A stretch of DNA of 64,000 bases from Blattabacterium cuenoti. Lineage in GTDB: Bacteria; Bacteroidota; Bacteroidia; Flavobacteriales; Blattabacteriaceae. Position 1 is the first letter of the stretch, and the number at the start of each line of letters is the position of its first letter. Made by a program: the position numbers and the translations under genes. Below, one piece after another: positions 3,101 through 47,547 of this stretch. The notes under the pieces are model-generated. The model saw only the letters and a program-made list of their open reading frames with translations, did not search any database and was not told the DNA's origin. The stretch lies in the NCBI RefSeq assembly GCF_014251375.1, contig NZ_CP059187.1, positions 248,001 through 312,000 on the forward strand, given 5' to 3'.

Positions 3101-4606
3101 ATGAAAAACGTAAATTTTTTTATTATTACTTTATTTGCTTTTTTTTCATTTGTTTTTTCTCAATCTCAATATTCTCAGAATAAATGGTCTATAAAAATAA
3201 GATCGCATGATGTTAATTATTATCCTATTATTAAATCTCCATTTAGGTATTTTTTTTATAAAAGAAATAATAGTCTCAATCCTTTTTTTTCAGATATAGA
3301 AATTGTACATCATCTCACTAAAAACATAGGTTTGTATGTTAATGGAACATTAGGAATGGTTGATAATAATAGATGGAAAATAATGGATTCTTTTTTTATA
3401 AAATTCAATCCTGGAATCAATCTTCATCTATTTCCTAAATATAGAATTGATCCTTATTTAATATTAGGTGGTGGATATCATCAATTTAACTATGAAAATA
3501 GCGCATTAAAAGTATCTGTTTCAGATTATTCATATTATTATAATTTAAATCAAAAACATTTTATTCTGTTAGATGGAGGAGTAGGAATGAATTTATGGGT
3601 TGTTTCTAATGTTGGGGTGAATCTTCAAAGTACTTACAATCATATTCTCACAACTCCTACTCCTTTTATTGCTGAAGCAAAAGAAGATTTTTTGAATTTT
3701 TGGGACCATTCTATGGGACTCGTATTTCGTTTTGGAAATAGTCATTCCAAAAAAAAAGAGAAAGGAATTTATTCTTCTGATTCTACAGTAGTAAAAGAAG
3801 AAGAAGAAAAAGAGAAAGGAGTTTCTTCTTCTGATTCTACAGTAGTAAAAGAAGAAAAAGAAAAAGAGAAAGGAGTTTCTTCTTCTGATTCTACAGTAGT
3901 AAAAGAAGAAGAAGAAAAAGAGAAAGGAGTTTCTTCTTCTGATTCTACAGTAGTAAAAGAAGAAGAAGAAAAAGAGAATAATCTTATTGAAGAGAATTCT
4001 GAAGAAGAAGAAAAGGATACAAATTGCTGTGAAGAGATTCTTGATCAAGATCAAGATCAAGATGGAATTTTAGATAAATATGATTTCTGTCCTGATCAAT
4101 TTGGATTAAAAAAATTTAATGGATGTCCTGATACAGATTCCGATAATATCCCTGATCATGAAGATAAGTGCCCGAAAAAATTTGGATTAAAAAAATTTAA
4201 TGGATGTCCTGATACTAGAACTACTAGAACTACTACTAGTAGAACTAGAAAAATAAGTTCTTCTAATAAATCTAATAAAAATATAATTTTAAAACCTATT
4301 TTATTTAAGTTTGGTCAACCGACATTATCTTCTCATTCAAGATCCATTATTAATGAAATTGCTGTAATTATGACAAAAAGGCTTCCTCATTCTAAATTTT
4401 ATATAAATGGATGTACAGATGATTCTGGTAAAAATTCTTTCAATAAAGCTTTATCCCTGAAAAGAGCTAAATGTGTATTTGAAGCTTTGAAATCCAAAGG
4501 GATTTCTCCTTATAGAATGAAAATAAGAGGATTGGTAAAATGTAAGAGTATAAAAAATGATAAAGGAAGACGTGTTGATATAGTTGTGATTCAAACTCCA
4601 AAGTAA
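3101..4606 (+). CDS. OmpA-family outer membrane protein with TSP3-like repeats and an internal tandem repeat
   Basis: This 501-residue envelope protein begins with a signal peptide (residues 1-20, hydrophobic and Phe-rich). An outer-membrane barrel-like region follows to about 215, with alternating aromatic strands and glycine turns. Residues 219-290 are four copies of an 18-residue acidic/basic repeat. Residues 314-371 hold Asp-rich TSP3-like calcium repeats, each ending in FNGCPDT. Residues about 397-501 form an OmpA peptidoglycan-binding domain, with D440 in GCTDDSG and the terminal GRRVDI. The usual GHTD is GCTD here. It probably tethers the outer membrane to peptidoglycan. An AAAGGA box lies just before the ATG. 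Confidence 0.88.
   Translation: MKNVNFFIITLFAFFSFVFSQSQYSQNKWSIKIRSHDVNYYPIIKSPFRYFFYKRNNSLNPFFSDIEIVHHLTKNIGLYVNGTLGMVDNNRWKIMDSFFIKFNPGINLHLFPKYRIDPYLILGGGYHQFNYENSALKVSVSDYSYYYNLNQKHFILLDGGVGMNLWVVSNVGVNLQSTYNHILTTPTPFIAEAKEDFLNFWDHSMGLVFRFGNSHSKKKEKGIYSSDSTVVKEEEEKEKGVSSSDSTVVKEEKEKEKGVSSSDSTVVKEEEEKEKGVSSSDSTVVKEEEEKENNLIEENSEEEEKDTNCCEEILDQDQDQDGILDKYDFCPDQFGLKKFNGCPDTDSDNIPDHEDKCPKKFGLKKFNGCPDTRTTRTTTSRTRKISSSNKSNKNIILKPILFKFGQPTLSSHSRSIINEIAVIMTKRLPHSKFYINGCTDDSGKNSFNKALSLKRAKCVFEALKSKGISPYRMKIRGLVKCKSIKNDKGRRVDIVVIQTPK
3755..3970 (+). repeat. four tandem copies of a 54-bp in-frame repeat inside the ompA-like gene
   Basis: Four head-to-tail units of exactly 54 bp (18 codons) run from 3755 to 3970, with six bases of a fifth unit following. 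The encoded unit is K-E-K-G, then V-S or I-Y, then SSDSTVV, then KEEEE or KEEKE. Copies 3 and 4 are identical by eye, copy 2 differs at one codon and copy 1 at two. Because the unit is a multiple of three, copy-number change would alter linker length without breaking the frame. Confidence 0.95.
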
Positions 4607-21096: not shown

Positions 21097-22203
21097 ATGA
21101 AGAATATTTATCCTAGAATTATTATTGGAAGTGGGGGGACTGGAGGGCATATTTATACAGGAATAGCTATTGCAGATGAGCTAAAGAATCAGTTTCCAGA
21201 AACAGATATTTTGTTTATTGGATCTAAAAAAAACATGGAAATGCAAGAAATCCCTAAATTTGGATATCAAATAGAAAGTATTTGTATTTCAGGGGGGAAG
21301 AAAAAAATTTTTTCTATTTCAGTGTTTAATTTGTTTATAGATCTGATCTATAGCTGTTTTCTAGCAAATAAAATCATTAAAAAATTTTCACCAAATATAG
21401 TTATTGGAACAGGTGGATATGTGAGTTTTCCAACATTGTATGCAGCAAAAAGAAATAAAATTCCCATTCTTATTCAAGAACAAAATTCTTTTCCTGGATT
21501 AACCAATAGAATTTTTTCTAGTTATGCTAAAAAGATATGTCTTGCTTATGAAGAAGCCGAAAAATATTTTCCACCAAAAAAAACTATAATAACTGGAAAT
21601 CCAATTCGATCAGAAATATTACAATTACCTAGTAAAGAAGAAGCTTGTTTTCATTTGGGTTTAAAAATAGAAAAACCTATTATTTTATCTATAGGAGGGA
21701 GTCAAGGATCTAATAGTATTAATAATGCTTGGGTAAAAGGATTAAAACAACTGATCCATCTAGATATACAACTGATTTGGCAGTTAGGAAAAGTAGATAT
21801 TCATAGAATCAAAGAAAATAGTAGTATTTCTCATCATGCAAATTTTCTTTTAATGGAATTTATTAATAATATTACGATCTGTTATGCAGCAGCAGATATC
21901 ATTGTCTCTAGAGCTGGTGCTTTAACTATATCAGAGATCTGTTTAATAGGAAAACCATATATATTAATTCCTTTGCCTTGGGCATCAAATGATCACCAAA
22001 ATAAAAATGCTAAAATATTGGAAAATAAAGAAGCTGCTTTGATCATAAAAAATGAGGATCTAGATAAAAAATTAGTAGATTCTACCATTAAACTCCTAAA
22101 TAATCCTAGTATGAGAAAAAAAATGAGTAAAAATCTTTTACAATTAGGAAAACCGAAAGCAACAAACGATATTGTAAATGAAATTTTACAAATTATTTTA
22201 TGA
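21097..22203 (+). CDS. murG: UDP-GlcNAc:lipid I N-acetylglucosaminyltransferase
   Basis: MurG, 368 residues, converts lipid I to lipid II at the inner face of the membrane. The N-terminal glycine loop IIGSGGTGGHIY, the second loop TGGYVSFPTL, and the donor-binding SIGGSQGSNSINN and SRAGALTISEI segments are present and in the right order. Its TGA stop overlaps the murC ATG. Confidence 0.95.
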   Translation: MKNIYPRIIIGSGGTGGHIYTGIAIADELKNQFPETDILFIGSKKNMEMQEIPKFGYQIESICISGGKKKIFSISVFNLFIDLIYSCFLANKIIKKFSPNIVIGTGGYVSFPTLYAAKRNKIPILIQEQNSFPGLTNRIFSSYAKKICLAYEEAEKYFPPKKTIITGNPIRSEILQLPSKEEACFHLGLKIEKPIILSIGGSQGSNSINNAWVKGLKQLIHLDIQLIWQLGKVDIHRIKENSSISHHANFLLMEFINNITICYAAADIIVSRAGALTISEICLIGKPYILIPLPWASNDHQNKNAKILENKEAALIIKNEDLDKKLVDSTIKLLNNPSMRKKMSKNLLQLGKPKATNDIVNEILQIIL

Positions 22204-23597
22204 ATCTAGATACAATTGATTCTTTTTACTTTTTAGGAATAGGTGGAATGGGAATGAGTTCCTTAGCAAGATATTTTCATTCCATGGGCAAGACAGTTTA
22301 TGGATACGATAGATATCGAACACTTTTAACAAGAAAATTAGAAAAAGAGGGGATATCAATTAATTATCATGATAATACAGAAATATTGCCTCAATGGATT
22401 CATTCTAAAAAATGTTTAATTGTTTATACTCCAGCTATTCCAGACAATCATAACCAATGGATTTTTCTAAAGAAATATGGAAAAAATATAAAAAAACGCT
22501 CTCAAGTATTATCTTTAATTACAAAAGATAAAATTTGTATAGCTATAGGAGGAACACATGGAAAAACAACCACGGGGACTTTACTAGGACATATTTTATA
22601 TAGTTCTGGTAAAAATGTTACTGCTTTTTTGGGAGGAATATCTGAAAATTATCAATCGAATCTTATTTTGAATGGGACAGAAATATTTTTAGTAGAAGCG
22701 GATGAATTTGATCGTTCTTTTTTATATCTATCCCCAAACATAGCATGTATTACGTCTTTAGATAGAGACCATATAGATACTTATCCAAAAGAAGAATCCT
22801 TGAGAAAGGCTTACATAGAATTTTCAAATAGAATCAAAAATCCATATGAAAAAATATTTCTTTGCAAAGAAGAATCGAAATCGTTTTTTTCTAATAAAAA
22901 CGCTATCTATTATTCTGTAGAAGAAGAAAAAGCAAATTATTATTCAGATCATGTTTCTGTAAAAGAAAATAAATGGTATTTTGATTTTCATACTCCAACA
23001 GAAACATGGAAATCACTTCCCTTACCAATTCCAGGTATACATAATTTAAAAAATGTGACCGCTGCATTAGCTATATCAGATTATTTAAAAATAAATAATG
23101 AAGATGTTAGAAAGGCTTTATTTTTATTTAAGGGGATTCAAAGAAGGTTTTCTATTCATTATAAATCTATAAAAAAAATATATATAGACGATTATGCACA
23201 TCATCCTACAGAAATTAATTCCCTTATTACTACTGTGAAAAAATGTTTTCCAGGTAAAAAAATATTAGGAATTTTTCAACCACATTTATTTAGTAGAACG
23301 AAATATTTTGAAGTTGATTTTGCTAAAAGTTTAGAACAACTTGATCTTTTAATTTTATTAGATATTTATCCAGCTAGAGAATTTCCCATTGAAGGAATTA
23401 GTTCTAATAAATTATTAGAAAAGATAAAAATGAGTTCTAAAAAAAAAGAAGTCTCTACTTTTAATAAAATTTTAGAAAAAATTGAAAAAAAAAAATTTGA
23501 TATTCTTCTAACCATAGGCGCTGGGGATATTGATACTTTAATACGTCCTCTCAAAGAGTGGTTGTATCAACGATATGGAGAGATGAAAAAAAAATAA
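22200..23597 (+). CDS. murC: UDP-N-acetylmuramate-L-alanine ligase
   Basis: MurC, 465 residues, adds the first stem-peptide residue. Seen are the N-terminal GIGGMGMSSLA loop, the ATP loop GGTHGKTTTG (about 117-126), DDYAHHPTE and the C-terminal GAGDID at 440-445. The last 68 codons are repeated immediately downstream in a damaged second copy. This first copy keeps the functional C-terminal motif, so I take it as the working gene. It ends with ATG, nine A and TAA, a homopolymer that sets the stop. Confidence 0.94.
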   Translation: MNLDTIDSFYFLGIGGMGMSSLARYFHSMGKTVYGYDRYRTLLTRKLEKEGISINYHDNTEILPQWIHSKKCLIVYTPAIPDNHNQWIFLKKYGKNIKKRSQVLSLITKDKICIAIGGTHGKTTTGTLLGHILYSSGKNVTAFLGGISENYQSNLILNGTEIFLVEADEFDRSFLYLSPNIACITSLDRDHIDTYPKEESLRKAYIEFSNRIKNPYEKIFLCKEESKSFFSNKNAIYYSVEEEKANYYSDHVSVKENKWYFDFHTPTETWKSLPLPIPGIHNLKNVTAALAISDYLKINNEDVRKALFLFKGIQRRFSIHYKSIKKIYIDDYAHHPTEINSLITTVKKCFPGKKILGIFQPHLFSRTKYFEVDFAKSLEQLDLLILLDIYPAREFPIEGISSNKLLEKIKMSSKKKEVSTFNKILEKIEKKKFDILLTIGAGDIDTLIRPLKEWLYQRYGEMKKK

Positions 23598-23806
23598 GGA
23601 ATTAGTTCTAATAAATTATTAGAAAAGATAAAAATGAGTTCTAAAAAAAAAGAAGTCTCTACTTTTAATAAAATTTTAGAAAAAATTGAAAAAAAAATTC
23701 GATATTCTTCTCTAACCATAGGCCATAGCCGCGGGGGGGGAGGATTGATACTTTAATACGTCCTCTCAAAGAGTGGTTGTATCAACGATATGGAGAGATG
23801 AAAAAA
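23392..23806 (+). repeat. direct tandem duplication of the murC 3' end
   Basis: Bases 23392-23593 (end of murC) reappear from 23596 up to the ftsQ start, an offset of 204 bp at the left end and 215 bp at the right end. Apart from homopolymer length changes (A11 to A9, A9 to A8), a TC insertion and one scrambled G-rich patch (about 23720-23743), the copies look identical by eye. The junction is directly at the murC stop and shares only two or three bases (AA) with the other breakpoint. Confidence 0.93.
23598..23797 (+). pseudogene. degenerate second copy of the murC C-terminal coding sequence
   Basis: This 200-bp stretch between murC and ftsQ is the second copy of the murC tail. Reading in the murC frame it follows the original up to the poly(A) run, where two A are missing, so the frame shifts. 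The conserved GAGDID codons are replaced by an unrelated G-rich patch containing eight consecutive G, and the shifted frame then hits a stop. It cannot encode a MurC domain. It has no start of its own and no other gene is seen in it. Confidence 0.88.
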
Positions 23807-24520
23807 AATAAAGTAATATTTATTACTACTATTTTAGTATATATGATTTCTATGATATTCTTTTCTTATTTTTCTCAAAAAAGACATAGAAATAGAACTT
23901 TAAAAAAGTTAAAAATAGTCATTTTACCATTATTATCTAATGAGCATTTTGTAAATGAAAAATTTATTAAAAACATTCTCTTTTCTAAAAGAGAAAAAAA
24001 AATAGGTCAATTATATATATTAAGAATGGAGAAACAATTAAACGATTCCCCTTTTATAAAAAAATCTGAAGTATTTCTTGATGTAGATGGAACTCTAAAT
24101 ATTAAAATTTTGCAAAAAGAACCAATTTTAAGAATAAAAAATGGAAATAAAGAATATTATCTTACGAAAGATGCAGAAAGTTGTAAACTTTCTTCTTTCT
24201 ATTCATCAAAAGTTATTTTAGCAAAAGGATCTTTTTCAAAAGAAGAAAAAAAACATTTAGTTAGTTTAGTAAAGGAAATCAACTCTGATGAATTGTTGAA
24301 AGATCAAATTATTAGTATCAAGAAAACTGTTGCTAACTTATTTGTTTTAATTCCAAAAATAGGAAATCATAAAATTATATTAGGGGATCTAGAGGATTTT
24401 AAAAGTAAATTGAATAAATTAAAAGCTTTTTATAAGCAGTACTTAAATAAAGTAGATATTAATCAGTATCAAAGTATTGATTTACAATATAAGGACCAAG
24501 TAGTCGCTAAAAAAAGATAA
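23798..24520 (+). CDS. ftsQ: cell division protein FtsQ/DivIB
   Basis: This 240-residue bitopic protein lies between murC and ftsA, the usual position of ftsQ. It has a short basic N-terminus, one membrane segment (about 6-24, VIFITTILVYMISMIFFSYF) and a periplasmic part with a POTRA-like region (residues about 35-105, including the KSEVFLDVDGTLNIKILQKEP-type segment). I chose the ATG at 23798; an upstream TTG at 23777 would begin inside the duplicated murC tail. The ATG itself is the last murC-derived codon of that duplicate. Confidence 0.82.
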   Translation: MKKNKVIFITTILVYMISMIFFSYFSQKRHRNRTLKKLKIVILPLLSNEHFVNEKFIKNILFSKREKKIGQLYILRMEKQLNDSPFIKKSEVFLDVDGTLNIKILQKEPILRIKNGNKEYYLTKDAESCKLSSFYSSKVILAKGSFSKEEKKHLVSLVKEINSDELLKDQIISIKKTVANLFVLIPKIGNHKIILGDLEDFKSKLNKLKAFYKQYLNKVDINQYQSIDLQYKDQVVAKKR

Positions 24521-47336: not shown

Positions 47337-47547
47337 TAGATAAATCGTGGGGGGACACTTCTTTTGAAACTTTAAAAAAATTCTTCAAAAATAAGTTTTT
47401 TTTTACAAAAATAGAAGTATTCATTGTTTTTTAGGGGTTTGTGTTCTTTAGATCCTTTTGCAATGCAAGAGGATATTTTTCTATTATTCTGAATAAGACT
47501 AAGGAACTAAAAGTTTCAAAGTAGATAAAGTAGATGGGGTGTTCATG
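47337..47547. other. 211-bp gap between convergent uppP and rpsP, no gene recognised
   Basis: No reading frame with family resemblance is seen on either strand. It contains a G-rich patch at 47350-47356, poly(T), and short frames ending quickly in stops. It is unusually long for a gap between gene 3' ends in this compact region. It may be gene debris or hold an untranslated RNA; I have no positive evidence for either. Confidence 0.5.

Follow-up and report, generated by a model that had tools for sequence, protein, structure and literature searches.

In the genome of the cockroach symbiont Blattabacterium cuenoti, assembled as one contig of 639,840 bp, the 3' end of murC is followed by a second copy of itself that runs into the gene at the ftsQ position, and this raises the question of whether the second murC tail is part of the chromosome or a product of the assembly. 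A false tandem duplication in the assembly is here considered more likely than a biological novelty, with a probability of about 0.55. The features concerned lie in the window, i.e., the whole stretch of 64,000 nucleotides that was analysed (C1:248001-312000 of this genome, G000):

22200 to 23597, plus strand: murC, 465 aa, ending in YGEMKKK and a stop, with its last codons past the ancestral stop (open reading frame; NCBIfam TIGR01082).
23392 to 23595, plus strand: copy 1 of the repeat, the murC 3' end (sequence comparison).
23596 to 23811, plus strand: copy 2 of the repeat, with no reading frame open throughout (sequence comparison).
23596 to 23597, plus strand: junction, AA common to both parents (sequence).
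23689 to 23745 (approximate), plus strand: scrambled, GC-rich centre of copy 2 (comparison of the copies).
23798 to 24520, plus strand: gene at the ftsQ position, 240 aa, with its start, ATG and eight A, in the end of copy 2 (synteny: between murC and an ftsA-like gene).

The murC product scored 360.8 bits against NCBIfam TIGR01082 (cut-off 335.1) and is 86% identical to the murC protein of Blattabacterium cuenoti strain EUPOLsin (NZ_CP059203.1, 639,415 bp). The product at the ftsQ position matched no profile in Pfam or NCBIfam, and its name rests on synteny. The repeat itself is clear. The 204 bp at 23392-23595 recur from 23596 to about 23811, before ftsQ, and a self-BLASTN search of the window aligned 23392-23602 with 23596-23817 over 224 columns at 90.2% identity (E=1e-81), so that the repeat is not due to chance. 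The copies lie head-to-tail at an offset of 204 bp with a defined junction, TAAGGAATTAG (23595-23604), in which AA is common to both parents. These results bear out the first-pass annotation, which described about 205 bp of the murC end as repeated directly after the murC stop and about two bases as shared at the junction. Its statement that the second copy is mostly identical holds for the outer parts, i.e., the first ~93 bp (102 bp if the register is followed on into the A run) and the final ~65 bp, and fails for the centre at about 23689-23745, where there are several indels and substitutions, and for the poly-A run after the last ATG, which has nine A in copy 1 and eight in copy 2. Copy 2 was also said to run up to the ftsQ start; it does reach ftsQ, and the ftsQ ATG at 23798 lies inside its end.

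The centre reads AAAAAAAAAAATTTGATATTCTTCTAACCATAGGCGCTGGGGATATTG in copy 1 and AAAAAAAAATTCGATATTCTTCTCTAACCATAGGCCATAGCCGCGGGGGGGGAGGATTG in copy 2. Compared with copy 1, this part of copy 2 lacks two A, contains an additional CT and a partial doubling (CATAGGC CATAGCC), carries GCGGGGGGGGAGG in place of GCTGGGGATA, and is 11 bp longer overall. This GC-rich and insertion-rich patch stands in a window of 27.5% GC, with perfect identity on either side. The differences between the copies are not spread as ordinary mutation predicts: six difference events fall within about 41 of the 204 bp (p ~0.002 for random placement, a rough guide only, since the test was applied to a clustering already noticed and to approximate positions). 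The error-like sequence is confined to copy 2. A genuine recent tandem duplication, arising by illegitimate recombination or replication slippage at ~2 bp of microhomology, is a serious possibility that falls short of even odds, and in that case the scrambled centre would have arisen by a genuine complex mutation or would reflect a locally wrong consensus, the repeat being difficult to assemble. Against it, the changes in copy 2 are all gathered in a single GC-rich patch, which is not the pattern of AT-biased decay. Poly-G was rejected as proof of error, as the genome has about 18 separate runs of at least 8 G/C.

No function was found for copy 2. A role as additional coding sequence was rejected, no frame being open through the copy, and as an RNA or regulatory element it has no Rfam match. 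The murC-ftsQ spacer folds better than shuffled sequences (z -3.6 over 203 nt; z -2.2 for the patch), a signal that was given no weight, since none of the relatives has the sequence that bears the patch and there is thus no basis for comparing conservation.

The nearest relatives at the locus are genomes G024 (90% nucleotide identity) and G026 (88%). A second copy between murC and ftsQ was found in 0 of 48 genomes of the genus, from other species, which counts against a genuine duplication, although it is also what a recent event would predict. The ftsQ start lies -20 to +16 bp from the murC stop in 45 relatives with an assignable ftsQ (L067 and L070, with no open ftsQ, and L071, where the scan took the next gene downstream, being left out), and at +200 in the window. 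In most relatives murC ends directly before ftsQ with TATGGATAA or TATGGATAG. Over the stretch corresponding to the centre G024 differs from copy 1 by many substitutions, and the two copies, if real, would therefore have separated long after the split from G024. A three-way scan for private divergence counts copy 2 as one insertion; elsewhere in the window, at about 47356-47470, the genome lacks, or has diverged over, a stretch of roughly 280 or more aligned columns that G024 and G026 have in common. Downstream of murC no open ftsQ was found in L067 and L070, ftsQ is unrecognised in L071, and it is short in L066 (140 aa) and L069 (109 aa), which suggests that ftsQ is lost or decaying in these reduced-genome strains.

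The quality of the assembly was assessed in a sample of 424 of the 640 kb, made up of the window and eighteen 20-kb stretches. Two runs of N were found, both at tandem repeats: 10 N at C1:489810-489819, inside an array of 84-bp period (L086:9606-10036 = G000:C1:489606-490036), and 46 N at C1:524032-524077, immediately after a repeat whose period is 72 bp (L096:13873-14077 = G000:C1:523873-524077). As short runs at tandem repeats these are probably unclosed scaffold gaps; they could instead represent deliberate masking, a point against a false duplication. No N separates copies 1 and 2; the N gaps lie elsewhere in the assembly. A generally poor assembly is not supported, as few frames in the window are broken relative to G024 and G026, and this otherwise clean window is itself a point against a false duplication.

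Long perfect tandem repeats should be unstable where recA is present. As recA was found in the genome, a perfect tandem repeat of ~100 bp is expected to be prone to loss, and this, together with the failure to find a further two-copy repeat of similar size in the 424-kb sample, supports a false duplication. A genuine duplication can draw on real arrays in the clade, i.e., 54 bp x4 in the window and 60 bp x ~38 in G024; against this, the known arrays consist of short units in many copies, not of a single 204-bp doubling. The array in the window lies in frame in a gene for an OmpA-family protein (3101-4606), and that of G024 is also in an OmpA-family gene (L072:2114-5662, 1182 aa), with nearly identical copies of the unit KKEENTTSTTTLSSPLDLKE. 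A further array, at L082:7389-7682 (G000:C1:127389-127682), has about four copies of 72 bp at 96% identity in one open frame, with the unit FENENLKDFSNG present twice.

A genuine duplication finds its strongest support in the murC stop, where two more features are needed:

23580 to 23582, plus strand: GAG in place of the murC stop, which is TAG in the nearest relative, G024, and TAA in most others (comparison with relatives).
23583 to 23597, plus strand: ATG, nine A and TAA, the end of copy 1 and the present murC stop (sequence).

The change from stop to GAG is repeated in copy 2 at 23795-23797. In both copies the ancestral TATGGA-TAG/TAA reads TATGGA-GAG followed by ATG, and the murC frame runs in frame into the ftsQ ATG (TATGGA GAG ATG). 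The end of copy 1 (ATG A9 TAA) then supplies the murC stop at 465 aa, and the end of copy 2 (ATG A8 TAAAG) the ftsQ start. As the ancestral stop is lost in both, a locus with a single copy fuses murC to ftsQ or misframes ftsQ: with eight A a continuous MurC-FtsQ frame of 701 aa is computed, and with nine A murC stops and the ftsQ ATG is out of frame. Two copies would restore separate genes, copy 1 keeping murC with a new stop (A9-TAA) and copy 2 being a dead spacer with the ftsQ start in it, and the symbiont population may be mixed for such a duplication. Each gene is complete when two copies are present, and each looks constrained relative to G024 (dN/dS ~0.19 for murC and ~0.29 for ftsQ). 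The usable murC stop at the end of copy 1 and the usable ftsQ start in copy 2 speak against a false duplication, as does the lack of an in-frame fusion among the relatives examined.

A further reading, which is doubtful, is that with one copy only the symbiont has lost the murC stop and has either the 701-aa MurC-FtsQ frame (8 A) or a separate MurC with ftsQ out of frame (9 A), with poly-A slippage possibly setting the ratio of fused to free protein. The N-terminus of FtsQ-type proteins stays in the cytoplasm, and a MurC-FtsQ fusion is therefore topologically possible. An in-frame fusion was seen in no relative examined. In L015, L030, L031, L054, L057, and L058 murC continues beyond its normal end and shares 11-14 bp with the start of ftsQ, in another frame; this overrun in several Blattabacterium genomes is a recurrent stop shift. 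It is very improbable that two population variants of the locus (one with 8 A and one with 9 A, or differing otherwise) were placed in series by the assembly and not as alternatives. The poly-A length does differ between the copies, and slippage-prone poly-A tracts are found in endosymbionts (PMC3017870); the scrambled patch, however, leaves copy 2 with no open murC frame, unlike a viable variant.

What favours a false duplication is that the centre of copy 2 looks like error, that no relative has this copy and that the same assembly contains gaps. The true locus would most likely have a single murC tail, followed at once by ftsQ. Two sequences that overlap, either the ends of contigs or one such end and a piece used to fill a gap, would have been joined end to end, the merge failing because one of them had a corrupted centre. 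The joining step is what we infer; the repeat, the scrambled centre, the absence in relatives and the other gaps are observed. The 2-bp common junction also fits illegitimate recombination and is counted against a false duplication. The first-pass annotation had offered both a recent or live duplication and unmerged contigs; the second is now favoured and the first keeps a sizeable probability, and neither the scrambled patch nor the loss of the ancestral murC stop in both copies had entered that interpretation.

Until reads are checked, neither duplication nor regulation should be argued from the murC-ftsQ spacer of this assembly. Should the duplication be false, copy 2 would have no role. 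The corrected locus would then be worth attention because, with the murC stop lost, two cell-envelope genes would be joined in a natural read-through (8 A) or set in conflict of frame by the poly-A run (9 A).

The head-to-tail order, the ~2 bp common at the junction and the identical outer parts resemble a duplication by illegitimate recombination or slippage, whereas the scrambled GC-rich centre in one copy does not. In vertebrate genomes, sequencing errors and gaps filled wrongly are documented as causes of false duplications (PMC9516828), and the homotype class shares with the present case near-identical adjacent copies, of which one is error-rich, in an assembly with other gaps; those were diagnosed by read depth in vertebrate assemblies, whereas the present case is judged from the assembled sequence. 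In Blochmannia, poly-A slippage occurs in endosymbiont genes and the frameshifts are possibly corrected by transcriptional slippage (PMC3017870). This likeness, drawn here purely from the genome sequence, is relevant only if the murC tail duplication is false, in which case the single-copy locus would similarly have a run of 8-9 A where the murC and ftsQ frames meet.
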